30,243 nt of DNA, from the IMG/VR virus record IMGVR_UViG_3300035698_012813, positions 1 through 30,243 of that record. The stretch is one strand, 5' to 3'. The notes beneath the pieces were generated by a model that saw only the letters and a list, made by a program, of their open reading frames with translations, was not told the DNA's origin and did not search any database. Positions within the stretch are counted from its first letter, which is position 1. The number at the start of each line of letters is the position of its first letter. The position numbers and the translations under genes were made by a program. Shown here piece after piece: positions 1,647-25,462 of this stretch. The stretch is from a virus.

Positions 1647-2486
1647 ATGGCCAACAAGAAACCGGTTAAGAAGCCGGCAAAGAAAACAGCGAAGAAACCT
1701 ATCAAGAAAGCAGCTCCAATAACTGTAGAGAAAGAGACGGTCGGGCAGCCGATCGAAGAGTCTTTCCTCCAGGAGGAGCAGCCAAAGATGAAACAGCCCA
1801 ACCTCTATGGTGCTGCCGATCAGATCCTCAACACACTGGAGACAGGACTCACCGACTGGAGGGACACACTCAAGAAACTTATGAACAGGAAAGAGAAAGT
1901 GGAGGACCTGATTGAAGAGGCAGAGAAGATGATCGATGAATACTCTACGTCCGTGAACAACCAGGTTCAGTTGGCCCCGAAGTTAGGGGACCCTGCTCCT
2001 CCGAAGAAGAAAACTCCGGAACAAGTTGGAGAGGAATTCCTTGACAAACTGGATCCCAAACCTCAAGGGAAGAAACCGGCAGCCAAGTCAAAGAAGAAGG
2101 GCCTGGATCCTGCAGGAGATCCCATCAAAGGGACAGCCGGCAAAGGGATCAAAGAGTTCCGGACTCCCCAACTGCTGGCCACACTGGACAAGGTATGTAA
2201 AGTTGGGATGCTCCTGCAGCCTGACTTCCTGGAGGCCAGGTATGTGATCAAAGAGATCATCGGGCCCAAGGATACAGTCGTCTCTTCCATCACCATGGCA
2301 CTTGTCGATTGTCCTCCATGCTTTACGCTGCTGCTGACTACTCCGGATCCGACTGCAGAGCAGAAAGAAATGTATGTGCACAACCTGATCATGGTAGATG
2401 AAAGGATCCAAAGTATATTCATTGATAACAATGAAGGATTTGATATCTGGAGCCACAGCAACGACGAGGGATCGGATCCATACTGA
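1647..2486 (+). CDS. Lysine-rich (histone H1-like tail) protein of the recombination operon, 279 aa
   Basis: The first 25 residues are almost only Lys, Pro and Ala, like a histone H1 or bacterial HU-extension tail, which suggests nucleic-acid binding. Residues about 55-110 form a helical, acidic region. A second Lys/Pro-rich linker covers about 115-160, and the C-terminal 110 residues look like a folded alpha/beta domain that I cannot name. The protein ends in an acidic stretch followed by Ser-Asp-Pro-Tyr, the same type of tail as the SSB of this phage. AGGAGG at 1636-1641 supports the start. The stop overlaps the start of the RecT-like gene (TGATG), so the two are translationally coupled. 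By context it probably acts with the annealing protein, exonuclease and SSB on DNA; the function itself is not established. Confidence 0.75.
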   Translation: MANKKPVKKPAKKTAKKPIKKAAPITVEKETVGQPIEESFLQEEQPKMKQPNLYGAADQILNTLETGLTDWRDTLKKLMNRKEKVEDLIEEAEKMIDEYSTSVNNQVQLAPKLGDPAPPKKKTPEQVGEEFLDKLDPKPQGKKPAAKSKKKGLDPAGDPIKGTAGKGIKEFRTPQLLATLDKVCKVGMLLQPDFLEARYVIKEIIGPKDTVVSSITMALVDCPPCFTLLLTTPDPTAEQKEMYVHNLIMVDERIQSIFIDNNEGFDIWSHSNDEGSDPY

Positions 2487-3739
2487 TGGCAGCCACAAAG
2501 AAACCGGCAGCCAAGAACAGTAAGCAGACTACTTCTGCCGGCAGCTCCGGCCGACCTCAGAAGGACGCCCTTGCCAAGACAGTATCTCAACCACTGCAGG
2601 CCTTTCAGGTTGAGTCCATAGTTAAAAACACACAGGATCTCGCCATCATGGGTAAATACATGAGCGAGTCCGGCTTCTTCCCCAAGTTATCTACTGCTGC
2701 CAAGGCATGTATGGTCATCGAGAAAGGAAGGGAGCTCGGGATCCTACCTATCAGCGCCGGCCAGGTCATTCACCCCATCCCCACACAGGACGGTATCAAG
2801 CTGGCAATCGAAGCCAAGCTCTATGGCGCCATCGGCATGAACGCTGGTGTCCGGTGGAATGTTGTGAAAAAGGATGCGACCGGCTGCACACTGAAATTCC
2901 ATTCGATCGTGGACCCGACGATCCCACCTCACACTGAATCATTCACCATTGAGGATGCTGCTCGAGCTAAGTTGGCCACCAAGAGTAATTGGGTGGGGTA
3001 TCCCGAAGAGATGTGTTATAACCGGTGCCTACTTAAGGGGATGAGAGTCTTTGATCCAAGGATCTGCATGGGCCTCTATTCTGTTGAAGAAGTCAGGGAT
3101 TTTGTGAAGATGGATGATGGAGATGGAGGAGAAGTCTATGTTGTTCCGGAAGATTCCCTTGCTGAAGAAACAGCTCCTCATGAAACAGCAGCAGAGAAAC
3201 GTGGCGAGGGACCGTCCATCGATCCGCTTGTTGAAGATTTCAGTGTCATTCCCGAAGGAACTACTCAGGATCCCGACAAAGCAGAGGACCTCGGGCTTGG
3301 CCAGGCCACCGAACGCCGGCAGCAAGCAGCGATCGATCCGGATCCTCCCGATGAGGGATTCATGCCCTTCGATGATGAACCTACCACCGAAGAGCTGAGG
3401 CCTGGAACCAGGGACCTGGCGCCGGCGACTCCAACGGATCCACAGATCCTCATCTACAAAGGGATGATCATGGATTGGATGCAAGTCCAAGGATTCGCTC
3501 ATCTCTATCCTCAGTTCAAAGAGTGGCTTGCCGTCTTCCAAACATCTCGAACCCCCATGAAGAGCTTCGTTGCTCGGAATCAGTTTGGCCACTGGAGCTT
3601 AGAGTCAGGATCCAAAGAAGATCTTAAGATCCTGGCCGATAACCTCAAGTGGACGATGGACCAATTCATTGACTACTGCTTTACTGTGCTCAAGCTCGAA
3701 AGGGTAGGCTGCCACACTCCTCCAGAACCTCAGGAATAA
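2486..3739 (+). CDS. RecT-like single-strand annealing protein with long C-terminal extension, 417 aa
   Basis: The conserved core (residues about 45-207) has the pattern I know from phage RecT-like annealing proteins. It shows Glu61-Ser-Gly-Phe-Phe-Pro, then Gly81-Arg-Glu-Leu-Gly, a Ser-Phe-Thr-Ile-Glu-Asp-Ala segment (152-158), Asn168-Trp169, Tyr172-Pro173, Arg180 and an Arg-x-Phe-Asp-Pro region before Tyr198. Such proteins coat single-stranded DNA and pair complementary strands, usually with a 5'-3' exonuclease, which is the next gene. The N-terminus is Lys/Ala-rich, like that of the upstream protein. Residues about 208-417 are unusual: an acidic, Pro-rich, probably disordered linker (about 208-315), then a helical domain of about 95 residues that I do not recognise. 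The usual family members are often shorter. The role is confident at family level; the extension is unexplained. Confidence 0.82.
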   Translation: MAATKKPAAKNSKQTTSAGSSGRPQKDALAKTVSQPLQAFQVESIVKNTQDLAIMGKYMSESGFFPKLSTAAKACMVIEKGRELGILPISAGQVIHPIPTQDGIKLAIEAKLYGAIGMNAGVRWNVVKKDATGCTLKFHSIVDPTIPPHTESFTIEDAARAKLATKSNWVGYPEEMCYNRCLLKGMRVFDPRICMGLYSVEEVRDFVKMDDGDGGEVYVVPEDSLAEETAPHETAAEKRGEGPSIDPLVEDFSVIPEGTTQDPDKAEDLGLGQATERRQQAAIDPDPPDEGFMPFDDEPTTEELRPGTRDLAPATPTDPQILIYKGMIMDWMQVQGFAHLYPQFKEWLAVFQTSRTPMKSFVARNQFGHWSLESGSKEDLKILADNLKWTMDQFIDYCFTVLKLERVGCHTPPEPQE

Positions 3740-3741
3740 TT

Positions 3742-4422
3742 ATGCCAAAGAGGATCCACGATAAGCACAGAGTCTATCATCAATACAGAAACGCTGCCGG
3801 TCAGCAGGTACCCAGTGTTACCACCATCACAGGGATGCAGCTCGGAGGCTGGAAGGCAGACAACCTAAAGAGATGGGCCAATCGTATGGGCCTCCAAGGG
3901 ATCGACACTGAGAAGTACACCGATGATAAAGCAAAGATCGGAACGCTGGCTCATGCCTACTGCACCGACTATCTACTCAGAAGGAAAACACTTGAAGATG
4001 ATTACTCCAAGTCTCAGATCGATGAGGCGCGGAGATCCTTCAGGGGATTCCTTAAGTGGACCAGACTCCACAAGGTTGAGCCTCTACTTATCGAGCAGCG
4101 CCTGGTATCTGAGCAGCTCCAGTATGGTGGGTGTGCTGACATCTATGCGCGAGTAGATGGCGTCTTCGAACTCGATGATCTCAAAACAGGATCCGGAGTC
4201 TACATCGACATGATTCCACAGGTGGCTGCTTATGCTCACCTACTGGAAGAACACGGCCACCCTGTCGATCGCATCCGGATCATAAACATTCCGAGATCCG
4301 AAGATGAATCCTTCACCGATCCGGAAGTCACCTCAATGATCGAGCTCGGCTGGAAATTATTCCAACGTGCACGATACAATCACCAAGACTACCTAGATCT
4401 CAACAGAAAATGGAGAGGATAA
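3742..4422 (+). CDS. PD-(D/E)XK exonuclease (RecB/Cas4-like), 226 aa
   Basis: This is likely the 5'-3' exonuclease partner of the annealing protein. Motifs seen are Gly67-Thr-Leu-Ala-His71 in a helix, Gly129-Gly130-Cys-Ala-Asp133, then Asp146-Leu-Lys148-Thr-Gly150, and Gln160-Val-Ala-Ala-Tyr164. They fit the His, Asp, Asp-x-Lys and Gln/Tyr positions of RecB-like phage nucleases. The family digests double-stranded ends to give 3' single strands for annealing. It starts two bases after the RecT-like stop, with AGGA upstream, and is followed immediately by SSB, giving the common annealase-exonuclease-SSB cassette. Length is normal for the phage form. No helicase domain is attached. Confidence 0.85.
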   Translation: MPKRIHDKHRVYHQYRNAAGQQVPSVTTITGMQLGGWKADNLKRWANRMGLQGIDTEKYTDDKAKIGTLAHAYCTDYLLRRKTLEDDYSKSQIDEARRSFRGFLKWTRLHKVEPLLIEQRLVSEQLQYGGCADIYARVDGVFELDDLKTGSGVYIDMIPQVAAYAHLLEEHGHPVDRIRIINIPRSEDESFTDPEVTSMIELGWKLFQRARYNHQDYLDLNRKWRG

Positions 4423-4423
4423 T

Positions 4424-4819
4424 ATGGCTGACTCAAACTCACTAAACGAATTCACCTTAATCGGATTCGTTGGCAAGGATCCTGAACTCATTCAATGCAA
4501 GGATCCTGGAAGAAAATTCTGCTCAATAGATCTCGCCACTCAAGAACGATACAAAGGAAGAGAGGAGCCCAAAGTCACCTGGCATACCTGCCAAGTATGG
4601 GGGATTAAGATGGGACCCTGGGCTGCCGGTGCCGTAAAGAAAGGGATGCAGATCTGCGTCAAAGGAAAACTCTCTTCTCGTATACTTGACATCGATGGAA
4701 AAAAATTTAAACTTGTGGACCTGAAGGTAGAAGAATTCATTGTCCTCCGTCAAAAGAAAACTGCTGATCCCCAACCTCCTGCTCCTCCTGCTCCTGTAGA
4801 ACAAAAGGATCCGTACTAA
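4424..4819 (+). CDS. ssb: Single-stranded DNA-binding protein, 131 aa
   Basis: Residues about 7-108 form an OB-fold SSB domain: Phe-Thr-Leu-Ile-Gly-Phe-Val-Gly-Lys-Asp-Pro-Glu near the N-terminus, an aromatic Trp-His-x-x-x-Trp segment around residues 52-59, and Gly-x-x-Ile-x-Val-Lys-Gly-Lys-Leu around 73-82. A short Pro/Ala-rich linker leads to an acidic C-terminus ending Lys-Asp-Pro-Tyr. Cellular SSBs end in acidic residues plus Pro-Phe, the docking peptide for partner proteins; here Phe is replaced by Tyr. Three other proteins of this region end in Asp/Glu-Pro-Tyr as well. GAGAGGA precedes the start by a few bases, and the gene is the last of the recombination unit before the terminator at 4826-4919. 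Confidence 0.92.
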   Translation: MADSNSLNEFTLIGFVGKDPELIQCKDPGRKFCSIDLATQERYKGREEPKVTWHTCQVWGIKMGPWAAGAVKKGMQICVKGKLSSRILDIDGKKFKLVDLKVEEFIVLRQKKTADPQPPAPPAPVEQKDPY

Positions 4820-4825
4820 AATTAT

Positions 4826-4919
4826 GAGGGGAGCCGACCTGGACCTCCTTAGATCGCCTGGTGTCGCGCCAAGCTGTCCGTTTTCCGGACTATCCTGCCA
4901 GGGAGTGCTCCCCTCTTTT
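4826..4919 (+). terminator. Structured terminator-like element after SSB
   Basis: GAGGGGAGC (4826-4834) pairs perfectly with GCTCCCCTC (4907-4915), and TTTT follows directly. The 72-base interior can fold further: CCTGG (4857-4861) with CCAGG (4898-4902), and GTCCG (4876-4880) with CGGAC (4886-4890). An ordinary terminator has a small loop, so this may be a structured RNA whose closing stem doubles as the terminator. It ends the SSB unit, just before the next promoter. Confidence 0.65.
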
Positions 4920-4939
4920 CTCAGAACCAAGAAGGAAGA

Positions 4940-4948
4940 TGGTATAAT
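4940..4948 (+). promoter_or_regulatory. Extended -10 promoter for the replication operon
   Basis: TGGTATAAT fits the extended -10 consensus TGnTATAAT exactly. No good -35 is visible 17 bases upstream, as is usual for extended -10 promoters. Transcription would start near 4955, leaving a leader of about a dozen bases that contains the GGGGGAGG ribosome-binding site of the initiator gene at 4968. Confidence 0.65.
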
Positions 4949-4967
4949 GAAGAGGGGGAGGTAGCAG

Positions 4968-5783
4968 ATGCCAGAGTGGAGAAAGCTGTATAAAAACATC
5001 TCAGATTCAAAGAGATTGGGCGCGCTCAAGTCCGATACATCTCGACTCTTATACTCCTGGCTTATGCCGTGGACCGATTGCGAAGGCCGGTGCACAGCAG
5101 ATCCGGATCTATTAAAGGGAAAAATTTTCCCGAAAGTAAAATCAATTCGAGTGGCAGATATTCAAAGAGCTCTCAATGAGCTGCATAATTCTGACTTGAT
5201 CCAAGTGTATGCAGCCGATGGAGAATTCTACCTTCAATATCAACAACCACAATTCGATGAACACCAGAAAATCCAGAAGAAAGAGGACGGCACACCTAAG
5301 AAAGAGGCCCAAAGTAAGATTCCAATGCCAACACCCCGAGACTCTGGAGTTACTCCGGAGTCCTCTGTAGTAGATCCTCTTAGATTAGATAAGATAAGAT
5401 TAGATAAGATAAGAGAAGAGGAGAGTTCTCCGATAGTCGAAGAACCTCCACTTCCCTCTCTCACTGATATTCAACAAGTGTGGAATATATTTGCAAAGAA
5501 GTATGAACTTAAAATTCTCATATCAATTAACAAGGGATCCGAAAGAGAGAAACATCTTAAGGCTAGGTTACTTGAGAGTGCATTTAATTTTCAGAAGATC
5601 GTAGACTCTGCTGCCAAGCAGGACTTCTTCTTTGGGAAGAACGAAAGGAACTGGAAACTTACATTCGATTGGATCATAAAGAATCCAGGAAACTATGTGA
5701 AGATCCTAGAGGAAAACTATATCAACGAAGATCAGAAGAAAAGAGAATTTATAATGGAGGGTGAGAACAATGAACCGTACTGA
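4968..5783 (+). CDS. Replication initiator / replisome organizer-like protein, 271 aa
   Basis: Residues about 1-95 look like the winged-helix N-terminal domain of phage replication initiators (lambda O or replisome-organizer type). They include a Leu/Tyr-Ser-Trp-Leu-Met helix, a Cys-Glu-Gly-Arg turn, and a helix followed by a beta-wing ending in Tyr-Leu-Gln-Tyr. The family binds origin repeats and recruits a helicase or its loader, and the origin often lies inside the gene. The middle (about 100-165) is a polar linker encoded by repeats at 5340-5413. Residues about 165-271 form a helical C-terminal domain with the Trp/Phe-rich pattern typical of these proteins. It ends Asn-Glu-Pro-Tyr and overlaps the next gene by 14 bases. 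GGGGGAGG supports the start. Confidence 0.78.
   Translation: MPEWRKLYKNISDSKRLGALKSDTSRLLYSWLMPWTDCEGRCTADPDLLKGKIFPKVKSIRVADIQRALNELHNSDLIQVYAADGEFYLQYQQPQFDEHQKIQKKEDGTPKKEAQSKIPMPTPRDSGVTPESSVVDPLRLDKIRLDKIREEESSPIVEEPPLPSLTDIQQVWNIFAKKYELKILISINKGSEREKHLKARLLESAFNFQKIVDSAAKQDFFFGKNERNWKLTFDWIIKNPGNYVKILEENYINEDQKKREFIMEGENNEPY
5340..5413 (+). repeat. Iteron-like tandem repeat and inverted repeat; candidate replication origin
   Basis: ATTAGATAAGATAAG occurs twice in perfect tandem (5384-5398, 5399-5413) and is followed by a purine-rich tract. Just upstream, GACTCTGGAGT (5340-5350) and ACTCCGGAGTC (5352-5362) form an inverted repeat with one mismatch. All lie in the linker-coding part of the initiator gene, where lambda-like phages place their origin iterons. 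The repeats encode repeated Arg-Leu-Asp-Lys-Ile units, so a purely protein-level cause is not excluded. Confidence 0.6.
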
Positions 5784-6228
5784 ATTTAAAGAACAGATGG
5801 ATAAGCTCTTAATATTCTATCGGGATCCACCTCCAGGATCCAATGAGCTCTACTGGAAATCTCTATGTGAAACATCCTATAAGACATTCGAGAAAGCCTG
5901 TGATGTTATCATCAACACATACGATAAAGACTCCTTCCCTAAGCCGAAGGTCTTTAATGATGCGGTCGCTGAGGTTTCAAAGAAAGGAACTCCATCTCCA
6001 CCAGCCAACTCAATCAACTGTCCATACTGCCGTGGGATAGGACTCTCAATACTTGAGGAGAAAGGATCCTCAGGTGTTGCTCATCCATGCTCCTGCAGGA
6101 AGGGACAAACATATCAACTTTCTTTTGATAAAGCTCGGATCAAAGCAGAGGCCAGGCGTAGAGAGATGATGCCGGAGAACATAGAAGAGGAGCCTACTCT
6201 TCCAGAGACAGCTCCGGATCCATATTAG
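5770..6228 (+). CDS. Zinc-motif protein, possible helicase loader, 152 aa
   Basis: The start at 5770 is chosen because GGAGG (5756-5760) lies nine bases upstream; a GTG at 5761 directly abuts it. Residues about 1-70 are helical with Tyr/Phe/Trp and Lys-Pro residues, resembling the N-terminal region of small phage loader-like proteins that follow an initiator gene. Cys84, Cys87, Cys107 and Cys109 form a zinc-ribbon-like site. The tail is Glu/Pro-rich and ends Asp-Pro-Tyr, like SSB. Overlap of 14 bases with the initiator gene implies coupling. Loader or primosome function is inferred from position and the helical N-terminus; no ATPase motif is present, so it is not a DnaC-type ATPase. Confidence 0.6.
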   Translation: MNRTEFKEQMDKLLIFYRDPPPGSNELYWKSLCETSYKTFEKACDVIINTYDKDSFPKPKVFNDAVAEVSKKGTPSPPANSINCPYCRGIGLSILEEKGSSGVAHPCSCRKGQTYQLSFDKARIKAEARRREMMPENIEEEPTLPETAPDPY

Positions 6229-6236
6229 GGGGAACA

Positions 6237-6542
6237 ATGGACATTGTAATTTATATGAACCCCACTGACTTTGAGCACAAAACCTCACTTCCAGTTATCT
6301 ACGCATATTGGGAAATGAGGCGATATCCCAAACGCTTCGGACCTCAAGATAATATCTATATTGCTGCCAAGGGAAAGGTCCAGGGCTTCGTTGAATGTTA
6401 CGAATACAATCCAGACGGATCCACAGAAACCATAGTGTGGAGCTCCGATACATGGATGCCTCTCACTGAAGACGTCCCATGTAAACCCTTCAGGGGATTC
6501 AGATACAAATGGTGGAGGAACAATGAAAGTAATCGCACTTGA
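6237..6542 (+). CDS. Hypothetical protein, possible PUA/ASCH-like fold, 101 aa
   Basis: The ATG follows AGGGGG by four bases. The central part (residues about 36-75) has short beta-strand-like segments, including Asn-Ile-Tyr-Ile-Ala-Ala-Lys-Gly followed by Gly-Phe-Val-Glu-Cys-Tyr-Glu. This resembles the core of PUA/ASCH-like small domains that bind RNA or modified bases, but the similarity is only by eye and weak. The C-terminal Phe-Arg-Gly-Phe-Arg-Tyr-Lys-Trp-Trp is strongly basic and aromatic. It overlaps the HAD gene by 20 bases and is part of the replication operon. Function unknown. Confidence 0.65.
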   Translation: MDIVIYMNPTDFEHKTSLPVIYAYWEMRRYPKRFGPQDNIYIAAKGKVQGFVECYEYNPDGSTETIVWSSDTWMPLTEDVPCKPFRGFRYKWWRNNESNRT

Positions 6543-6882
6543 TATCGATGGTACAATTCTCAAGTTGGGAGCCTGGCAGGGGATCGATCACTTTGGAAAA
6601 CCTTTCCCTCACGCAAAGAAGTGTCTTGATTTTTTAAAGAAACAGGGATTCACTATCATCATCCACTCCTTCAGGTTAAATCCGGATATAGATGATTGGC
6701 CACTGCCACGCCTCCGGATGAACGTCGAGGATATCCTTGGCCAACATGGGATCCCTTATGACTACATCTTTACAGGGATTGGGAAACCACTGGCTGATTT
6801 TTATGTAGACGATCGAGCTGTTCACTTCACTGGAGATTGGGAGGCCACGATGAAAGAGATCATAGGGAGGGCAGCACGATGA
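6523..6882 (+). CDS. HAD-superfamily phosphatase-like protein, 119 aa
   Basis: Motif I is Asp7-Ile-Asp9-Gly-Thr11 near the N-terminus, the catalytic nucleophile and acid of HAD hydrolases. Motif II is probably Ser49 after a hydrophobic strand (Thr-Ile-Ile-Ile-His-Ser). Lys88 in Gly-Lys-Pro-Leu and Tyr94-Val-Asp96-Asp97-Arg98 supply motifs III and IV. The chain is very short, with no cap domain, so it may act on large or phosphopeptide/nucleic-acid substrates, or on nucleotides. GGAGG lies four bases before the ATG, inside the upstream gene. It shares ATGA with the RusA gene. Such minimal HAD proteins are common in phage replication regions; the substrate cannot be read from sequence. Confidence 0.85.
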   Translation: MKVIALDIDGTILKLGAWQGIDHFGKPFPHAKKCLDFLKKQGFTIIIHSFRLNPDIDDWPLPRLRMNVEDILGQHGIPYDYIFTGIGKPLADFYVDDRAVHFTGDWEATMKEIIGRAAR

Positions 6883-7283
6883 CTAATTTAATGACAGAGA
6901 TCCAACTGGAGATCCCACGAACACCGCCATCGTATAGTCAGATCATACGGATGAGGGTTAGAGATCGGATCCAGTTGAAGAAACTCTGGAGGCAAGAGGT
7001 TCAGGTTGCAGCTATGGAACTTAAAGAACTGGAAACGACAGGTCCACATGCCACATGGAAAAAGGGATTTAAAAATATAACGATCAAACAATTTCGAACG
7101 AGACTGATTAGGGATCCGGATAATTTATATGCCAGTATTAAGCCGATCATGGACGCGCTTAAACACGGTGGCCTAATCATCGATGACGACTTTAAAAATA
7201 TTCATCTCCAAGCTGTAGTCCAATCAAGGGCAACAGGTGAATCTTTAGTAAAGACTGTGATTATTATTTCGGATCCGGAATAA
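6879..7283 (+). CDS. rusA: RusA-family Holliday junction resolvase, 134 aa
   Basis: The signature is clear: Arg78-Asp79-Pro-Asp81-Asn82-Leu, then Ile-Met-Asp92-Ala-Leu, then Gly-Leu-Ile-Ile-Asp102-Asp103-Asp104. These give the acidic metal-binding residues of RusA endonucleases, which cut Holliday junctions as dimers and may clear branched DNA before packaging. The start at 6879 overlaps the HAD stop (ATGA) and has GGGAGG (6865-6870) eight bases upstream; an in-frame start at 6837 is poorer. A Pro-rich N-terminus (Pro13, Pro16, Pro17) is also typical of the family. It is the last gene of the + strand arm and its stop lies within the palindrome at 7262-7285. It ends Ser-Asp-Pro-Glu. Confidence 0.93.
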   Translation: MTNLMTEIQLEIPRTPPSYSQIIRMRVRDRIQLKKLWRQEVQVAAMELKELETTGPHATWKKGFKNITIKQFRTRLIRDPDNLYASIKPIMDALKHGGLIIDDDFKNIHLQAVVQSRATGESLVKTVIIISDPE

Positions 7284-8838: not shown

Positions 8839-11800
8839 TTCTTTTTCTCCTCCTCTATATCATCCATCATCTTCTGGATAAATATTTGGATCCGATCGAC
8901 GGCCTTGTCTGCATCTTCCTCTTTCTCGAATGGCTTATCCCTCATGAGCCTATTGAATTCTTTGACTGTAAAGTTCATCCTCCACATCATTCGTTTTTCT
9001 GCCCTGTTTCTTAGGTATGGAAGAGTAAACCACCGGAAGAAGTGAGCCATCTTTCCCATGTCCTTGTGCATGGCCTCGATCGCTTGCTTCCTTTTCCCCG
9101 GGGTGTCTTCAGCTACTACCTCCAGCATCCGGAGGATCCTCTTAAGGGAATACTCAAGGATGTCGGTACCTATCTTGGCCGAAGACTCAAGGCCTGGCCG
9201 GTAGATAGGCTCACCTGCAGGATCTGTATTCTGAACCACTTCATAGATGAGCTGCAGGAAAGGATGGAAGTCCCACTTGGCCCTATCTATAAAGCCTTGG
9301 ATCTTATCGGGCTCATTGGCCAACGTCCGGAACCGGTGCCAGTATCTCATAAGCACGTTGTCCGGGCTGCTCATGTATTGGACCAGCTCTTTCTCTTCGC
9401 CGTCGCTGATCACGTCCTTGGAGTATCTCAGTCCGAACCGGTCTTTCTTATATCCCAGGACCTTTGTCATAAACCATTCTCGTATAAGCATCCCACCGAC
9501 CAGGCCTATAATGGCCTTGCCCATGGCGCGTTGATATCTCTTGGATCTGCCAGGCCCTTCCGGAATGGATCCATCGATAGGATCTTCGAAGAGATCTCCT
9601 GGAGGAAGGGCTGCGGATCCGGTGGCCTCTTTCTTTCCCTTGAACAACATCCTGCCAAACTCTTTTACCATCTCGGACTGAGCTGAGATCATCGAGATCC
9701 GGAATGAAGGAGTGAAGAGAACCTTGTTTAAGATCTTCCGTGTGGCCGGAGGGATAGAGGCATAGTCGGCATGGAGCTTGGCTGCGATCTGAGCTGCCTC
9801 CATCGGAGTGGCACCTAGACTGAGCTGGTGATGGTACGTGACCAGCCTGATCAGGTTGTCACCCCACCATGCAATCTCCCATGACCAATGATATGGATTA
9901 ATCTTCTTGAACCGTTGCCAAAAGTGATCCTTGTTTATAAGATCCTTTATCTCTTTATCAAACTGCTTCCATCCTGGAGTGAACGGAGTGGAGAATCCTG
10001 CCCAGTAGTGCATGTTCCAATAGTGTAGATCCTTGTTCTTCATGCTGAGAGCTGCACTTCGAAGAGCTCCCGGGGTCTTCCATGGAGACAATATTCCTAA
10101 CCAGAAATATTGGATTGCATCGTACATCGGAAGGAAGAGAGGATTGTAGAACTGCAGCACTTTGACAGCTCCAAGAAAAGCTCCGAGCTTAGGGTGCATG
10201 AATCCTTGTTTGGTAAGATTTCTCTCCAGCCAGGTCGTCAATGCCGGATGCCCCTTGTACCCCTTCAACGATGGATATCTTTTTGTGTCGAATGACTGAA
10301 AAGTTTTCGGAGCCTCATCTGCCGGCACGATCATCTTGTCAGTTTTGGCAGCTCTGAAGGCATCGGCAAGGGCAGACTTGAGTCCGACCTGGTGGCCGTA
10401 GGCAGCCATGACTCTTCGGGCATCGAGATCTACCGGCTTTATTTTCCCCTCTTCCAAAAGCTCTTTGGCAAAAGCCTCCATGTCTAAACTCTTTCTCTTT
10501 TTAAAGAATTCAGATATCACCTTTACACCATCGGCCGGATCCGAATCCCACCAGGCTTGCATCCAGAGCTTCGGAATGTGGACATACCTTGTTCCGGACT
10601 TCTTCAGGAATTCGATGGAGTTCTCAAGCTGCTTGATCTTGTCTCGGATCTTCTTCCCCCTTTCATTTGAAAGGCCACGCTTTTTCAATACATCATTGTA
10701 GCTTGAGATCTCACCCTTCATATATTTGATTGCACTATAGGGCCAGAGGTCATCGATGATTCCCTTCCTCTGCAGCTCTCTTCCCCATACATCAAAGAAG
10801 GTTCGGACTGCTCTCACTGGAGCATGGAACTTCGTCCTGTCTGCCGGTGTCATCTGTCCGAAGTGTCTCCTGGGAGTAGAGGCAACAAACAATATGCGCT
10901 GCCAATCAGAGTCTGAGAGATCCTTAAACTGTTTCATCATTTTTTTGATCTGATTCTTTACCTGCTCCAGGACAGCGTTTGTTCTAGGGTGAAGGGCCTT
11001 GAGTGCCAGGCCGGTCCGGTCAGCTCCCAAAGATTTAAAGTGTGGCTCGATCTGGAAGAACTTAGAGAGTTGGGGCCCATACTTTTTAATCTCGGATCCG
11101 AAAGGGAATCCGGAATAGAGCTCCGTCTTATCTTCCGTGGGATCTGTCCACTTCTGCCACTCTTCTTTTGACTTTGTTTTTACGTCTCGAATAACTTCCT
11201 TCATAAACAATTCTTGCTGCGCCGGCGATAGGATCTCACCGTACTTACCGATGAAGGCCGGACTCACCGTAAGCTTATCTTCTATCCCTAGTTTCTTCGC
11301 ATAATCTTTTATACTTTGGATCCGATCTCCAGTGATCTCTCCAAGTTTTTCAGTGTCACCAAGGGGAGTCTTCACTGAGACTTTAACGAGATAGGACTTC
11401 CCTTTAGGGGGTTTTACTTCTGTTGCTGCAGGAGATTTCTTGGGGCTTCCAGGAACGACAGGATCTTGACGTTTCTGGAGCGTCGTCTTTTTCGGCGAAA
11501 CTTTAGTAGGCTTTTGCTTGGGGATCTCCAGTTGACCAGCCTCTTTTTCAACTAAGTCTAATTGCTTTGGCGCCGGCTTCCCGAACTTGGGCACGATCGT
11601 TTTGGCCAGCTTGATTGGAGGTGTCGGTGGAGGTGGCGCTGCCGGTGCACCACTCCGTGGGGCAATCAGTTTCGGTTGAGCTTCGGCATCACTTTCTCTC
11701 CAGAGTCTCCGGATCCCCTTGTTTAATGCGTCCCTGGATCCTACTGCTGAGAGCTCCGAGAAGAGATCCACACCAAATTCTTCTTCAAATTGCTTGGCAG

Positions 11801-18472: not shown

Positions 18473-19954
18473 TTAATACATATATCCAAAAACTTCGACG
18501 TCAAAGGTCATGGCCCCACCTTGGGCCGTGTTGACCGATATCTTAAATGTTCCGGCTGCAGCTCCTCTAGGGGCTCCAGCCATAACACTCAAGGTAGAAT
18601 ATAGCGTAACCCCAGTCAATGCCACGTGTGCAGAATCCGCAATCACATCGTTTCCTGCAGCGTTCCACCCAAAAGAACATTGGGCTGTTGTCAAATTCCC
18701 AGAACAATTCCGGATAATCACATGAGTTACGACAACACTTGCTCCAGGTGGCGCCGTGAAGATCGTTGTCTGCACGGGAGGAGCTCCTGGATTGAGATCG
18801 ATCGCCGTCTTATATCCAATCAGCCCCATGTGTTCATGGCCGGTGTACCACAAGGCAAGGTTCGTAAGATCAAAGGGTTTGTTTGCACTAATATTATTGA
18901 TCTGCAGTGACTTTCCTGCTGCAGATCCATCAATAGAATAATTTCCAGCTGGAGTATAAAGAGTCGAGTTAAAAAGTGCTCCTGTAGTTCCAGATGTTCT
19001 AACAACCGCCTTTGTTCCAGCGTTCATTAATTGACAGTTGCTGATGGTTCCTAGGAGATTTCTACAGGCATACCCATTCACTCCACCAAGTATTGTAGAA
19101 TTGTAAGCATATCGATTATTCTTGAGCTCATAAATCCCATCTGTACCCCCATAAATAATCGAATTATAAATATATCCATTGGAATCCACAAAGACAATCC
19201 CATAATCTCCGGAGTACAACTCACTTGAAATTATAGTGCATTTACAGGTGTAAATTGCCCTTCCCCTTACGGCAGTTAGCCGAGAGTTTTGGATCCGGCC
19301 TTTATCTGAATCGTTTATACACCTGGAATTTGCGTTCGCATTTGTAGCCTGGACGAGGGTCAGTTTCATATCAGATCTCATAGTGTTCATAACATAACCG
19401 GATCCGGATATGATGACACAGTTCACAATAGAGCACGTGTCCTTATCTCCCACGGTTTCAGACCAAGCTCCATGAGCATTGTTATAGACGGTTCCCGTGT
19501 TTTCTATGGTGAGATTTGCAACTGTAATATTGGCAGCAGTCTTCGTGATAACGTATCCTGTGGCAAAAAGCCAGATCCTACACGAACTGGCATTTATCCC
19601 AACCAGATCAATATAAGCGGTGTCTAGGGTTAGCTGCTCATTATAGTTTCCTGGATAAACGAGAACCGTAACCCTGTTGGCTGCTGCAGGAGCAAGAGTT
19701 TTGGCTTGTGTGTATGCTGCTGCGATCGTCGCATAATCACCCTGTCCATTTACATCGGCAGTCACCATATTGACGGTTCCGACCAGGTTTCCGGCAAACT
19801 CGAGAGCTGTTTCTCCGGCATTTACGCGGGAAAAATCCTTTGCTTTACCGACAAAAGAGGCCGGAGTGTCCGTTAAGTCTAGCCAGGTACTACTGAGCGC
19901 TGCGAGGAAATCATCGATCTCCTGCTGCGTATAGTAGTGAAAATTCTTATCCAT
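18473..19954 (-). CDS. Tail spike with right-handed beta-helix (pectin-lyase-like), 493 aa
   Basis: Residues 7-16 (Tyr-Tyr-Thr-Gln-Gln-Glu-Ile-Asp-Asp) match a short N-terminal fibre motif also present in the 137-aa protein. Residues about 23-55 share the pattern Leu-Thr-Asp-Thr-Pro-Ala, Arg-Val-Asn-x-Gly-Glu-Thr-Ala-x-Glu-Phe with the 285-aa protein. From about residue 60 the sequence shows a parallel beta-helix, starting with Gly-Asp-Tyr-Ala-Thr-Ile-Ala-Ala-Ala, then a Val-x-Val-Tyr-Pro-Gly-Asn-Tyr-x-Glu motif typical of pectinesterase-like helices, and many Asn/Ser/Thr coils with Ile-Tyr-x-Ser-x-Ile. The last 100 residues look like a beta-sandwich. Spikes of this type bind or cleave surface glycans. 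Catalytic residues are not identified. Confidence 0.72.
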   Translation of the reverse strand: MDKNFHYYTQQEIDDFLAALSSTWLDLTDTPASFVGKAKDFSRVNAGETALEFAGNLVGTVNMVTADVNGQGDYATIAAAYTQAKTLAPAAANRVTVLVYPGNYNEQLTLDTAYIDLVGINASSCRIWLFATGYVITKTAANITVANLTIENTGTVYNNAHGAWSETVGDKDTCSIVNCVIISGSGYVMNTMRSDMKLTLVQATNANANSRCINDSDKGRIQNSRLTAVRGRAIYTCKCTIISSELYSGDYGIVFVDSNGYIYNSIIYGGTDGIYELKNNRYAYNSTILGGVNGYACRNLLGTISNCQLMNAGTKAVVRTSGTTGALFNSTLYTPAGNYSIDGSAAGKSLQINNISANKPFDLTNLALWYTGHEHMGLIGYKTAIDLNPGAPPVQTTIFTAPPGASVVVTHVIIRNCSGNLTTAQCSFGWNAAGNDVIADSAHVALTGVTLYSTLSVMAGAPRGAAAGTFKISVNTAQGGAMTFDVEVFGYMY

Positions 19955-20820: not shown

Positions 20821-21234
20821 CTATATGGAATCCTCTATGATCAGTGGAAAGCCAGCGATCGCATCCTCAAGTCTAATGAGAGCTGCCAGGGCCTGTAAAA
20901 TTGTGGAACAGGTATATGTGATCTCATCTTCGAAGTCGAGATCCAAGAGCTGGTTCTTCCAGCAGGAATTCACTATATCGTACATTAGAAAGTGATGTCT
21001 GGCCAAAGTAGTAAGACAGGTAGGCAGGATCCCAAGAGCTCCAAGGAGCGCATCGATCTCTGATTTTGTATAGTAATTAGTGAGATCATCTTCACCTGCA
21101 TTTTCATATAAGTGGATCTCCTTAACAACACCTGGCTTAAGAACTTTATCGCGGAGCTCCATTTCCTCGTTTGGTTCCTGGAGGAACTTTTGGTATTCGA
21201 TCGCATCTTTATTCCGATCTCTTGGATTTGTCAT
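20821..21234 (-). CDS. Small tail fibre-associated protein, 137 aa
   Basis: Residues 53-65 contain Asn-Tyr-Tyr-Thr-Lys-Ser-Glu-Ile-Asp-Ala-Leu-Leu-Gly, the short helix motif found in many phage fibres just before trimerised parts; a variant opens the 493-aa spike. The N-terminal 35 residues are polar and charged. The C-terminal half is helical with hydrophobic residues and three Cys. The start overlaps the stop of the 1066-aa gene (TAATG) and has only a distant GGAG, so translation is probably coupled. It is perhaps a connector between nozzle and fibres; this is inference from motif and position. Confidence 0.6.
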   Translation of the reverse strand: MTNPRDRNKDAIEYQKFLQEPNEEMELRDKVLKPGVVKEIHLYENAGEDDLTNYYTKSEIDALLGALGILPTCLTTLARHHFLMYDIVNSCWKNQLLDLDFEDEITYTCSTILQALAALIRLEDAIAGFPLIIEDSI

Positions 21235-24200
21235 TAGTCTGGAGCCACTCCATAATTGATTTTGAGATCCTTATTGAACAAAAGATCCATGCCAGATATC
21301 TTAACTTCTCCTCCGGTTTTTTCATTGTTTGTAAATTTAAGGCTTATGTACGTTCCTGGGATCCTGAGATTCTGCCTGGTCACAATATCATTCCGGAGAA
21401 CGACATTATCCGATGGAGTATATCCATTGAAGGTGGCCGTGGCGATCGCTGTTTTTAACATATCTGCATAGATATCACAGGTCAAAGTCATGGCTGCAGG
21501 GAGCTCGTATTTAAGGAACATTCTCCGGACCACATTAGCCAGCTCTCTCATCGAGATCACATTAAACCAACCGGTTTGGAAGTGAGAGGAAATTGCTGCG
21601 CCGTCATCATCATATCCGGATCCTTGAATGTAGACATTCCCTTCGGCCGTACCGGTGAGGAACATCAGGCCATCGATCTTAGTTTTTGTGCTCATGAGAA
21701 AGGTGAGATCCTGAGGGAAAGTGTAAGCAGTAAACCATCTCTTAAAATAATTATAGACGATCGTTGTGTCAGGTTCTGTGTTAGATCCTGTAGGAACAGA
21801 CATCCAGTATTCACCCTCATTGAAATTATGCCCTCCAACGATCTTGTCAAGGGCCTCCGGATTTATTGAGGCCAGAGTGACCCCCACAAGATCTGAGACT
21901 ATCGGCCGGTAACAGGAATTTCCGTTGAAGACCTCGATCCCAAAGGCAGATTTCCAAAGCATGAATTTATCACACACCTGGACGGACCATGGAGAATCGG
22001 TTCCAATGTTCTGAGAGAGAGGCTCCAACTGATATAGAGAGGCTCCAACCTTGGAAAGTCTAAACATGGAATTATTCTTAAGAATATAAAGTTTGTCACC
22101 GAAGACTTTGATCTGTTTTATCCTATCGCTTTCCCTTGCCCTTACAGGAATGAAGTTGGCGTCTGCCATTTCTTCTGAGGTCCCTGTGTTAGTCCGGTAG
22201 AGATAGTTTTCATATCCTTCAACACCGGCAATCCACAGTTTGTTATCCCAAACCTCCATGTATGGACCGATCGGGGGAACACCTCGATCGTAACTCACCT
22301 CGGATCCACCGAGCAGGGTGTTATCATCGATGATATCTGTATATGTCGTAGTGGCATTATCGTCAATATCAGCCAGCCAGTAAAACCGTTCTCCTCCAGC
22401 CGTTGTTCTATAAATTCTTCTGGAGTTGCACTTTGGATCCAAGGACGTTGGGATCGCCGTAAGTAAGATCTTCCCTCCAACTGGATCCACCTGGATTGAT
22501 TCCGGACCAGGATTGCTTTCTACTGGATAGTTTCCGGATCTTTGGAAGGTTACTACATATTTAAAAAGGCCACTGTGCCCCCATAGATTGGAAGAGTATT
22601 CAAATCCGGTGTTGTAGTCGTGGACTACAGAGAATCCAATAGTTTCATAAGCTGGTGTTGTACTGGTTCCTGTCGCTGAAAGAAGAACGAAGATCCCACC
22701 TCCACCGAGACCGTCAGAGACAATCTTAAAGGTGAAGTCGTCCTCATAGGTTACGGTGTAAGTTGAGGCTCCGGCAGCGTCGAGCTGAGTTTTTATCTCT
22801 GCTGCCATGGCTGCCGGCAAATAGGTGGCAGCTCCGAGCGTGGCCGTCAGCTCTACTCCGGCCGTCTCTTCAAAGTTCAGCTCATTATTCGTCGCACCGA
22901 TGACGATGTTCTGGGATCCTGCCGGCGTCAGCGCATTTACCGGTGGCTGAAGGCCCAAGCTGTAAACAGAATCCCCTTCAATCGTCACCATCTCATCTAA
23001 GGCAAAGGTCAGTCGACCATCATCCACGGATCCGGCTGCAACCGGCCGGTTTATTTCTTTACTCGTCGAATAGATGGACGTGTATGAATTCGTTGAGAGC
23101 TCCCTGATATGAGCTTCTCGATATTTGAATCCATAGAGGTCTCCCTTAAACTCGATGAGATCTCCGTGGCCATGATTGGCCGGAGCTGCGTTTGTGGCGA
23201 TATTTATTTCATTTACAAAGTCTGAGAGTAAGTTATCCCAATACCAAGTCTTGTAGGTCCTCGTTCCAGCCCAATCATTGAACGATGAAATGAACATCTT
23301 TCCATCATGCAGGGCGTTCCCCTGCACCATGCCAAGGGCCATGGATCCATTTTCCTCTGTCCAGGTAATGAGATCCTCGGATGAATAAATCTTATTGTCG
23401 TTTCCATCCGGCGCGACGGCTCCAACAACATTAAGAAATTTTGAAACAATAACCCAATGTTTTCCGTTGTATTCATAATGCCGAGTAAAGCCATAATCAT
23501 CAATTCCTGTGCTGGAGTAGATCTCATTAAACCGATCATAAAGCGTTGCATTGAACCGATGGATCTCCCAGGTCCATTTACCACCTCCGTCTTTTACCGA
23601 AACAGCAAGATGAAGAACATTTCCGAAAGTAAATAATTTTCCAAAATTTCCCTTGACGCCTGGCGCATATGTCTGTGCTGAATTTGTGGCCAAGGATCCG
23701 GCACCGTCGTAATTTGCGATCAGACTATATGCGTTTCCGTCATAACTCCAGACATAAAATCCAATCGTCGAGATTACCAGGATCCAGAGCTTTCCATCCC
23801 ATAGATGAAAATTAATCGCCGTCTGACCGGCTGCATTGGCTGGCATTTCCTCCGTAAAGCCCCCATCCCACCTAGCGACAAGATCATCTCCACCAAAAGT
23901 ACCGACAAGACCCATGAAGATTTCATCGGCATACGTTATTCCACAATATCCCTGATTTACGTTCGGCGCAATAGTCGGGGTAAAGGTGTCTAAAATCGTC
24001 CAGGTAACGCCATCCTCCGTCTGCATAATATCAATCGTGGCTCCTGCAGATTGGTCAAAATGACACATCTTGTCTTGATAAAGAAATGGCGCATGAGGAT
24101 CTACGAGGTAAAACGTATCCGAATCCAGCCACTGCCTGGTCCAAGTGTAGACATCTTCTCGGATAACAACTCCGGATCTTGTGACAATGATTATTTTTTC

Positions 24201-24434
24201 GGTGCCATCGGGATCCACATACCTAAAAATCCCACGGATAGGCTCACCGAAGGACGCGTAAGCTGCATCCAGCTTGGCATAACCTGGTCTTTTTATTCTA
24301 GATTTCCCATCCTTATCCGGCTTCCAATTATTGACGCTGATCACGTCCGGAAGAGGGACTTCGGAGGGTGGATCCAGCTCGTTTAACGTGCCGGCCAGAT
24401 TCCAGATGGGTAGTATGTTTCGCTCAAAGGCCAT
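21234..24434 (-). CDS. Tail nozzle / stabilization-like protein, 1066 aa
   Basis: The N-terminus, with Val-Asn-Asn-Trp-Lys-Pro-Asp-Lys-Asp-Gly and then Arg-Pro-Gly-Tyr, is like that of podovirus nozzle or DNA-stabilization proteins. The bulk is beta-rich with repeated Trp and Tyr blades (for example Lys-Leu-Trp-Ile, Trp-Val-Ile), consistent with a large beta-propeller. Residues about 515-610 form an inserted domain that is homologous to one in the adaptor (see the 24930-25205 entry). The C-terminal part (about 690-1066) returns to strands typical of a nozzle (Leu-Trp-Ile-Ala-Gly, Leu-Tyr-Ile-Leu-Lys-Asn). Its place two genes after the capsid genes and next to the adaptor supports a role in the portal-distal tail. 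GAGGAAAGGGG precedes the ATG. Length is larger than T7 gp12 (about 800 aa). Confidence 0.7.
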   Translation of the reverse strand: MAFERNILPIWNLAGTLNELDPPSEVPLPDVISVNNWKPDKDGKSRIKRPGYAKLDAAYASFGEPIRGIFRYVDPDGTEKIIIVTRSGVVIREDVYTWTRQWLDSDTFYLVDPHAPFLYQDKMCHFDQSAGATIDIMQTEDGVTWTILDTFTPTIAPNVNQGYCGITYADEIFMGLVGTFGGDDLVARWDGGFTEEMPANAAGQTAINFHLWDGKLWILVISTIGFYVWSYDGNAYSLIANYDGAGSLATNSAQTYAPGVKGNFGKLFTFGNVLHLAVSVKDGGGKWTWEIHRFNATLYDRFNEIYSSTGIDDYGFTRHYEYNGKHWVIVSKFLNVVGAVAPDGNDNKIYSSEDLITWTEENGSMALGMVQGNALHDGKMFISSFNDWAGTRTYKTWYWDNLLSDFVNEINIATNAAPANHGHGDLIEFKGDLYGFKYREAHIRELSTNSYTSIYSTSKEINRPVAAGSVDDGRLTFALDEMVTIEGDSVYSLGLQPPVNALTPAGSQNIVIGATNNELNFEETAGVELTATLGAATYLPAAMAAEIKTQLDAAGASTYTVTYEDDFTFKIVSDGLGGGGIFVLLSATGTSTTPAYETIGFSVVHDYNTGFEYSSNLWGHSGLFKYVVTFQRSGNYPVESNPGPESIQVDPVGGKILLTAIPTSLDPKCNSRRIYRTTAGGERFYWLADIDDNATTTYTDIIDDNTLLGGSEVSYDRGVPPIGPYMEVWDNKLWIAGVEGYENYLYRTNTGTSEEMADANFIPVRARESDRIKQIKVFGDKLYILKNNSMFRLSKVGASLYQLEPLSQNIGTDSPWSVQVCDKFMLWKSAFGIEVFNGNSCYRPIVSDLVGVTLASINPEALDKIVGGHNFNEGEYWMSVPTGSNTEPDTTIVYNYFKRWFTAYTFPQDLTFLMSTKTKIDGLMFLTGTAEGNVYIQGSGYDDDGAAISSHFQTGWFNVISMRELANVVRRMFLKYELPAAMTLTCDIYADMLKTAIATATFNGYTPSDNVVLRNDIVTRQNLRIPGTYISLKFTNNEKTGGEVKISGMDLLFNKDLKINYGVAPD
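22580..22890 (-). repeat. Shared inserted domain, copy in nozzle-like protein
   Basis: Residues about 515-610 of the 1066-aa protein contain Asn-Glu-Leu-Asn-Phe-Glu-Glu, Ala-Ala-Thr-Tyr-x-Pro, Ala-Glu-Ile-Lys-Thr-Gln-Leu-x-Ala-Ala-Gly-Ala, Thr-Tyr-Thr-x-Thr-Tyr and Thr-Ile-Gly-Phe. The same order is present in the adaptor (24930-25205). Confidence 0.8.
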
Positions 24435-24451: not shown

Positions 24452-25462
24452 CTAGGCTTGACCGATGGTTCTAACTGATGGCCTTTTGCCTGGTGTCGGA
24501 CCTTGAGGATTGCTCATCTTCATGGCGACCGTTCCAAGCTCTTCGGTGTAAAGTGTGTTTATCGTAGTAGCGCCTTTGTCTCCATCTCTCAGAAACCAAT
24601 ACTTGAGCACATAGTAACAGAGCAGGTCATGAGCTGCCCATGGGAGCCCTGGAGAGTCTGTATCCTGTGTGAGGTTTGCTGTCTTCCGGAAGTAATATCC
24701 AAGGAGCTGGTTTACTGCATTGGCGTTCGCGATCGGAACGATAAAGATCTCATCAATATCTTTATATCCCCATCCTTTAACGGCAGACGGAGCTGCTGTT
24801 TGTCCCTTTACTTCATGAAGAAAATTGTCTGTTGGATTCAAGTAGATCAGTGGTACCGGCTTGGCGCCGGCTTGCTGCTGCATGATGGATTCGAACATCA
24901 TAAAATTTTGGACATCGATGGCGTAGTTTCCGGCATAGTTAATAAAGCCGGCCAGATCCGTGGCAGCAAATCCGATCGTACTCCAGATCCCATTGGCGAT
25001 ATTTACGCCTGTGGCTGCAAGGAGTCCAAGAGTGGCATCGTTGGCGATCCGGAAGACTTTTCCGGAGTATGTGATCGTGTAGGTTGCTGCACCGGCAGCT
25101 TCCAGTTGAGTCTTAATTTCTGCACAGAGAGTGGTAGGAGTGTACGTGGCTGCCGTGATCGTGGCCACCAGAGCTGCTCCACCTTCATCGAAGTCGAGCT
25201 TTTGGTTCGCTGCTGTGATGACGATGTTCCCATCGATCCCGAGATCCGAAGAGATGTTGTATTCGCGCTGATTTATAACCAGGGATATATCAACCTCTTT
25301 TCTGAAATACCAGGGAACGGCATCGATCAGCGCCATCATGAGCTTTTCCTGAGCTCTGTTTATAATTGTATCGAGGTTAGCGTCAGTCCAGAGTCCAAGG
25401 GGAGCTTCTGTGAGCTCGTCCGAGAGGATCCGGATCTGATCTCTAATTTCTAGTCTGTTCAT
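24452..25462 (-). CDS. Head-tail adaptor protein with inserted domain, 336 aa
   Basis: The N-terminus (residues about 1-60) has Arg-x-Gln-Ile-Arg-x-Leu-Ser-Asp-Glu, Leu-Trp-Thr-Asp-Ala-x-Leu, Ile-Asn-Arg-Ala-Gln-Glu-Lys-Leu, then a Trp-Tyr-Phe-Arg segment. These are typical of podovirus adaptors (P22 gp4 / T7 gp11-like), which sit between portal and nozzle. Residues about 86-178 are an inserted beta domain also found in the 1066-aa protein. The C-terminus (about 200-310) resumes the adaptor pattern, with Ile-Tyr-Leu-Asn-Pro-Thr, a Tyr-Tyr-Phe-Arg-Lys strand and a final helical part with Leu-Leu-Cys-Tyr-Tyr-Val-Leu-Lys-Tyr. GGAGG lies five bases before the ATG, right after the hairpin at 25475-25508. 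Many relatives lack the insertion. Confidence 0.75.
   Translation of the reverse strand: MNRLEIRDQIRILSDELTEAPLGLWTDANLDTIINRAQEKLMMALIDAVPWYFRKEVDISLVINQREYNISSDLGIDGNIVITAANQKLDFDEGGAALVATITAATYTPTTLCAEIKTQLEAAGAATYTITYSGKVFRIANDATLGLLAATGVNIANGIWSTIGFAATDLAGFINYAGNYAIDVQNFMMFESIMQQQAGAKPVPLIYLNPTDNFLHEVKGQTAAPSAVKGWGYKDIDEIFIVPIANANAVNQLLGYYFRKTANLTQDTDSPGLPWAAHDLLCYYVLKYWFLRDGDKGATTINTLYTEELGTVAMKMSNPQGPTPGKRPSVRTIGQA
24930..25205 (-). repeat. Shared inserted domain, copy in adaptor
   Basis: Residues about 86-178 of the adaptor repeat the pattern at 22580-22890. The Ala-Glu-Ile-Lys-Thr-Gln-Leu segment is identical, and the flanking strands match closely while the DNA has diverged. This indicates a mobile beta domain reused in two neighbouring tail proteins. 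Confidence 0.8.

Follow-up and report, generated by a model that had tools for sequence, protein, structure and literature searches.

A stretch of viral DNA of 30,243 nucleotides (IMGVR_UViG_3300035698_012813, the whole of which is referred to here as the window) encodes four proteins that end in the same three residues, an aspartate or glutamate followed by proline and a terminal tyrosine ([DE]PY). The carriers are the single-stranded DNA-binding protein (SSB), a replication initiator, a zinc-motif protein whose gene overlaps the end of the initiator gene, and a lysine-rich protein (1647-2486) given the working name P1. The motif is limited to these proteins both in the window and in a sister phage, is conserved at the protein level between the two, and is absent from the initiators and loader-position proteins of other phages. 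The reading favoured here, with a probability of about 0.62, is that [DE]PY is a C-terminal docking motif, a tyrosine version of the SSB tail tip, which would let several replication proteins reach one pocket of the kind that receives SSB tails.

Acid-Pro-Tyr ends in the window and in a sister phage

The first-pass annotation of this DNA had described four proteins finishing in an acidic residue plus Pro-Tyr, and all four C-termini were verified at the expected stops (P1 DEGSDPY, SSB VEQKDPY, initiator GENNEPY, and zinc-motif protein ETAPDPY). The window has 31 plausible proteins with 9,506 residues between them, of which these four alone have [DE]PY as the protein end, and the tripeptide occurred internally only once, inside the protein at 398-631, which gives an internal frequency of about 1e-4. 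The binomial chance that at least 3 of 30 non-SSB proteins end in [DE]PY was about 8e-8 from residue frequencies and about 5e-9 from the internal rate, or about 2e-6 when a factor of three is granted for acid-Pro-aromatic motifs other than this one. The annotation had also called all four replication or recombination proteins; for P1, which has no recognisable family, that label comes from gene position alone. Its statement that the tails mostly follow an acidic or flexible stretch needed narrowing, as PAPVEQK in the SSB and LPETAP in the zinc-motif protein, which precede the tail, are no more than weakly acidic.

Scans of IMG/VR and GTDB yielded one sister phage with the module (L009/G001, IMGVR_UViG_3300005663_000142, a 32-kb record). 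They also gave a partial relative, the 25-kb fragment L045/G002, which has structural genes in common with the window and no replication module, and in which none of the shared genes is tailed. BLAST identities between the window and the sister were 57% for the RecT-like protein, 57% for the exonuclease, 47% for the SSB, 44% for the initiator, and 47% for the zinc-motif protein, while alignment gave 52% for the initiator and 49% for the zinc-motif protein. The sister SSB ends in VEEDPY, its initiator in GENDPY, and its zinc-motif protein in SGDPY, and no other plausible protein in that record has a [DE]P[YF] end. The RecT-like protein and the exonuclease are tail-less in both phages, and P1 is absent from the sister. 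The check proposed earlier, whether homologues keep the tail, was run, and all three sister orthologues retain [DE]PY while the preceding sequence has diverged. Tyrosine, with its free terminal carboxylate, is the final residue in all seven proteins (four in the window and three in the sister), and proline is next to last in 7/7 as in the C-terminal tip of bacterial SSB (SSB-Ct), but with tyrosine instead of phenylalanine. An acid stands immediately before the proline in every tail; the other acids vary (NDEGSD, VEQKD, EGENNE, and ETAPD in the window; VEED, GEND, and SGD in the sister).

Selection on the tail was tested on this one genome pair, with sites assumed to be independent. The 27 tail nucleotides differ at 5 positions, all of them third codon positions, with 4 changes synonymous and 1 changing Glu to Asp; random placement of 5 changes left all three motifs intact in 0.04% of trials (P 3.8e-4). 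Tail residues were identical at 8 of 9 positions, compared with 14 of 45 just upstream in a generous alignment (Fisher P 0.002). These comparisons support a protein-level feature under selection. The end of the initiator gene (GAG AAC AAT GAA CCG TAC TGA) shares bases with the start of the zinc-motif gene (ATG AAC CGT ACT GAA). The two differences of the sister in this overlap leave Asp/Glu-Pro-Tyr intact in the tail frame, and in the zinc frame they put Thr for Asn and His for Arg; both favour the tail frame, and two events are few.

Codon bias could in principle produce such ends by coincidence, with GGATCC supplying Asp-Pro and the initiator tail arising simply because the next start codon overlaps it. 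GGATCC is present 72 times in the window compared with 15 ± 4 expected from dinucleotide shuffles, 26 of these are phased as xxG-GAT-CC and encode xDP (DP dipeptides number 60 across the window), and the initiator EPY overlies ATG AAC CGT ACT. However, Tyr and a stop are also required, the chance is about 1e-6 or less, the sister keeps the tails with other codons (GAG GAT CCT TAT; GGA GAT CCA TAC; GAC CCA TAC), and the differences in the overlap point to the tail frame, which makes coincidence hardly credible. A chance origin of the tails was rejected on the binomial value and the conservation in the sister, and is largely refuted. Recent copying of the tail, suggested earlier from a common GGATCC run, was likewise rejected: the run is real, but copying of one tail at the DNA level is not indicated because GGATCC is abundant background and the sister encodes the same residues with different codons. 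GATC-containing words in general are frequent in the window, whereas phages usually avoid restriction palindromes.

A survey of 674 mechanically called open reading frames from about 30 phage stretches showed 18 acid-Pro-aromatic ends, 14 of which belong to SSBs (one assigned by PHROG). The other four were the initiator and the zinc-motif protein of the sister, a RecT-like protein ending in NPDEPF, and one small open reading frame. Six other phages had tail-less initiators and loader-position proteins, and most SSBs there end in Phe; relatives of the initiator in phage records were distant and also tail-less. On these sequences, the tail belongs to this lineage and not to the initiator or loader protein families. 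A Tyr-terminated tail was found in none of the other SSBs examined here, and the terminal Tyr may be the host SSB's own version or the phage's own.

The RecT-like protein with the NPDEPF end (L004, 25-879; PHROG 148, E 2.6e-5) carries it behind an acidic stretch, and the SSB of that phage ends in NDLPL. It was considered as a relative of P1 and found to be unrelated. A weaker form of the theme, an acidic stretch with a terminal Phe, was seen in two further annealases, a RecT (L012, 8719-9741; EGEDPGLF) and an ERF (L033, 7308-7994; GDQSDF).

Proposed docking and its possible receptors

In the proposed mechanism, the lineage would carry the tip on its SSB, its replisome organiser, and the adjoining zinc-motif protein (a putative loader from its position), and in the window phage also on P1. 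With its Tyr ring, its terminal carboxylate, and one of its acids, each tail would enter one pocket made up of a hydrophobic hole, a basic rim, and a basic residue that takes the carboxylate. At the phage origin and on exposed single strands, the tailed proteins would in this way recruit a common partner or pass it from one to another. We infer three things here, namely that the tails bind a pocket, that this pocket is common to them, and that it is of the SSB-tail type. The docking reading is partly supported; a single pocket would be its most economical form and has precedents in T7 gp2.5 and gp4, the HK620 SSB with Sak4, and a chimera of PriB with the SSB C-terminal domain (PriB-SSBc). The DnaG pocket receives a C-terminus with Arg452 at the terminal carboxylate and basic residues at the acidic ones (PMC5872125). 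An SSB tail can be moved to another protein, as the SSB C-terminal domain fused to PriB stimulates PriA (PMC8509808).

Several points weigh against docking. Docking is predicted from sequence, and the receptors considered below are candidates. The AlphaFold models of the zinc-motif protein and of the C-terminal domain of the RecT-like protein were both poor, with predicted local distance difference test scores (pLDDT) of 45 and 44. The evidence comes from two genomes, as the IMG/VR and GTDB scans gave no third relative with the module. The tails are weakly acidic (QKDPY in the SSB), and their Tyr in place of Phe has no match in any other SSB examined here. The tail of P1 has no support from conservation, as P1 has no orthologue, and conservation of the initiator tail could partly stem from the start of the next gene, which uses the same bases.

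The tails could instead be acidic autoinhibitory DNA mimics that act inside each protein or against DNA-binding surfaces, a role proposed for T7 gp2.5. For SSB tails, roles inside the same molecule are on record (PMC9917605; PriB-SSBc). However, the window tails have one to three acids near the end, one with a neighbouring Lys (QKDPY), the Pro-Tyr-COOH is conserved and the charge is not, and the DNA-binding domains of the four tailed proteins are unrelated, so that autoinhibition is very unlikely. A pocket that reads the C-terminus would fit the invariant acid-Pro-Tyr-carboxylate and the variable charge better than bulk DNA mimicry.

Short common C-terminal residues on co-produced proteins would also fit a stability signal that shields the proteins from host C-terminal proteases or directs them there. 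Yet one carrier is an SSB, in which this position is the established docking tip, and the structural proteins of the phage are without the tripeptide. We know of no bacterial degron of the [DE]PY form, and this explanation is considered even more improbable than autoinhibition.

Within the docking reading, a host protein of the DnaG, PriA, or chi type, which normally reads SSB tails, is slightly preferred as the receptor to the C-terminal domain of the phage RecT-like protein. The latter would bind [DE]PY so that the tailed proteins tether the annealase to the origin and to single strands, a sub-case of docking that is compatible with it. The RecT-like protein is itself tail-less and lies in the same operon, and its separate C-terminal domain is 64% identical in the sister behind a divergent acidic linker. 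The Red-beta C-terminal domain binds SSB (PMC8303780), HK620 Sak4 binds the SSB tail of its own phage (PMC5928155), and a phage receptor would account for a joint switch from Phe to Tyr on all tailed proteins. On the other side, the domain showed no similarity to a known SSB-binding domain, its AlphaFold model was unusable (pLDDT 44), and it is not evident why an initiator would need an annealase; a phage receptor of this kind is considered unlikely.

A private docking code, in which the SSB, the origin-binding initiator, the loader-position protein, and the extra basic protein would all be read by one receptor whose pocket favours Tyr above the Phe of the host, can be put forward tentatively. 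If it were true, one site could suffice for the phage to put together its machinery for origin, loader, and single strands, or to pass it on, without competing with the host SSB. Bacterial replication and repair use SSB tails as their hub code, and the docking reading, if true, would show in the tip on an SSB, an initiator, and a loader-position protein that this code is portable in nature. The tail is also a short, peptide-sized handle for finding the receptor and for asking how phages recruit the host replisome or insulate themselves from it, and the exchange of Phe for Tyr opens the specificity of the pocket to direct test.

Genes of the replication module and their neighbours

The features of the module are shown in Table 1. 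The SSB scored 56.5 bits on the PF00436 profile (curated cut-off 26), and the initiator was covered by PHROG 5810 over residues 20-251 and by PHROG 10469 over residues 165-259. P1 gave no Pfam, PHROG, or NCBIfam family above the cut-off and had no relative in IMG/VR or in the sister record.

Table 1. Positions of the genes, tail codons, and overlap element of the module in the window
Feature	Position	Strand	Basis
P1, 279 amino acids, Lys/Ala/Pro-rich N-terminus, ends GSDPY	1647..2486	+	unknown family
DPY tail codons of P1 (GAT CCA TAC), stop TGA	2475..2483	+	sequence
RecT-like annealing protein, acidic linker, conserved C-terminal domain (about residues 302-417), without DPY tail	2486..3739	+	PHROG 561 RecT-like, E 1.5e-5
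PD-(D/E)XK-type exonuclease, without tail	3742..4422	+	PHROG 298 exonuclease, E 5e-31
SSB, OB fold, Pro-rich linker, ends QKDPY	4424..4819	+	Pfam SSB, E 3e-15; PHROG 44
DPY tail codons of SSB (GAT CCG TAC); sister GAT CCT TAT	4808..4816	+	sequence
Replication initiator, DnaD-O-like replisome organiser, ends GENNEPY	4968..5783	+	PHROG 10469, E 2e-16; PHROG 5810, E 8e-16
EPY tail codons of initiator (GAA CCG TAC); sister GAC CCA TAC; overlap first codons of next gene in another frame	5772..5780	+	sequence
Overlap element: ribosome-binding site GGAGGG (5756-5761) and ATG (5770) of zinc-motif gene within final codons of initiator	5756..5783	+	sequence; same layout in sister (9640-9653)
Zinc-motif protein (CPYC..HPCSC), helicase-loader position, ends APDPY	5770..6228	+	no named family
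DPY tail codons of zinc-motif protein (GAT CCA TAT); sister GAT CCA TAC	6217..6225	+	sequence
RusA-like Holliday junction resolvase, without tail	6882..7283	+	PHROG 34, E 3e-10

The zinc-motif gene lies in the loader position and overlaps the end of the initiator gene, as do loader-position genes in Moorella and Faecalibacterium phages. Its product matched no Pfam family, including the G39P-type loaders (PF11417), had no relatives in phage records, and reached a probability of 1% in hhalign with a set of six loader-position proteins that included one from PF11417. The AlphaFold model (pLDDT 45) was poor, and neither the profiles nor the model confirmed a G39P-type loader. At a guess from gene position alone, the protein is a putative helicase loader. 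No tRNA or prophage evidence bearing on the host was found.

Directly after the zinc-motif gene (6237-6542), the window encodes a 101-amino-acid protein whose 68% identical counterpart in the sister (1561-1872) lies about 8 kb away, which points to gene shuffling around the module. Farther along, two adjoining structural proteins (21234-24434 and 24452-25462) resemble each other over a domain of about 100 residues, with 43-51% identity in comparisons across the sister phages, and may have arisen by duplication. The protein at 18473-19954 is conserved in relatives over its first 25-45 residues only, and the relatives' proteins are much shorter (209-210 amino acids); it is probably an exchangeable, host-contact protein. 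A third relative (L046/L047, IMGVR_UViG_3300032731_001196) has structural genes in common with the window, with a major head protein 92% identical, and encodes upstream of them, in the terminase/portal position, two large proteins (L046, 5770-7341 and 8370-10415) that are lacking from the window fragment.

Comparison with known systems

The gene content resembles the SPP1 module (G34.1P, G35P, G36P, G38P, G39P, G40P, and G44P), which also combines exonuclease, annealase, SSB, organiser, loader position, and RusA (PMC5615212); unlike SPP1, the window has no visible helicase gene, and its loader is assigned by position only. The tails resemble bacterial SSB-Ct (E. coli DDDIPF) in their place at the extreme C-terminus, the order of acid(s), Pro, and aromatic residue, the free carboxylate, the OB-fold SSB with a Pro/Ala-rich linker, and a tip that is conserved while the linker diverges. 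They differ in having Tyr for Phe and fewer acids, and in occurring also on two or three unrelated proteins of the same phage.

The closest precedent is T7, in which more than one replication protein has an acidic tail that finishes in an aromatic residue, DEDGDF on gp2.5 (SSB) and SNDTDF on gp4 (helicase-primase). The tail of gp2.5 binds the same polymerase as gp4. The acidic tails of gp4 bind basic patches of the T7 polymerase (PMC12593628). The T7 tails are long, strongly acidic, and end in Asp-Phe without Pro on an SSB and a helicase, whereas those of the window are short and end in Pro-Tyr on an SSB, an initiator, and a zinc-motif protein in the loader position. In HK620, the annealase Sak4 of the phage is recruited by the tail of its SSB, NDYPPF (PMC5928155), an instance of a phage SSB tail docking a phage annealing protein; there the SSB alone is tailed and the end is Phe.

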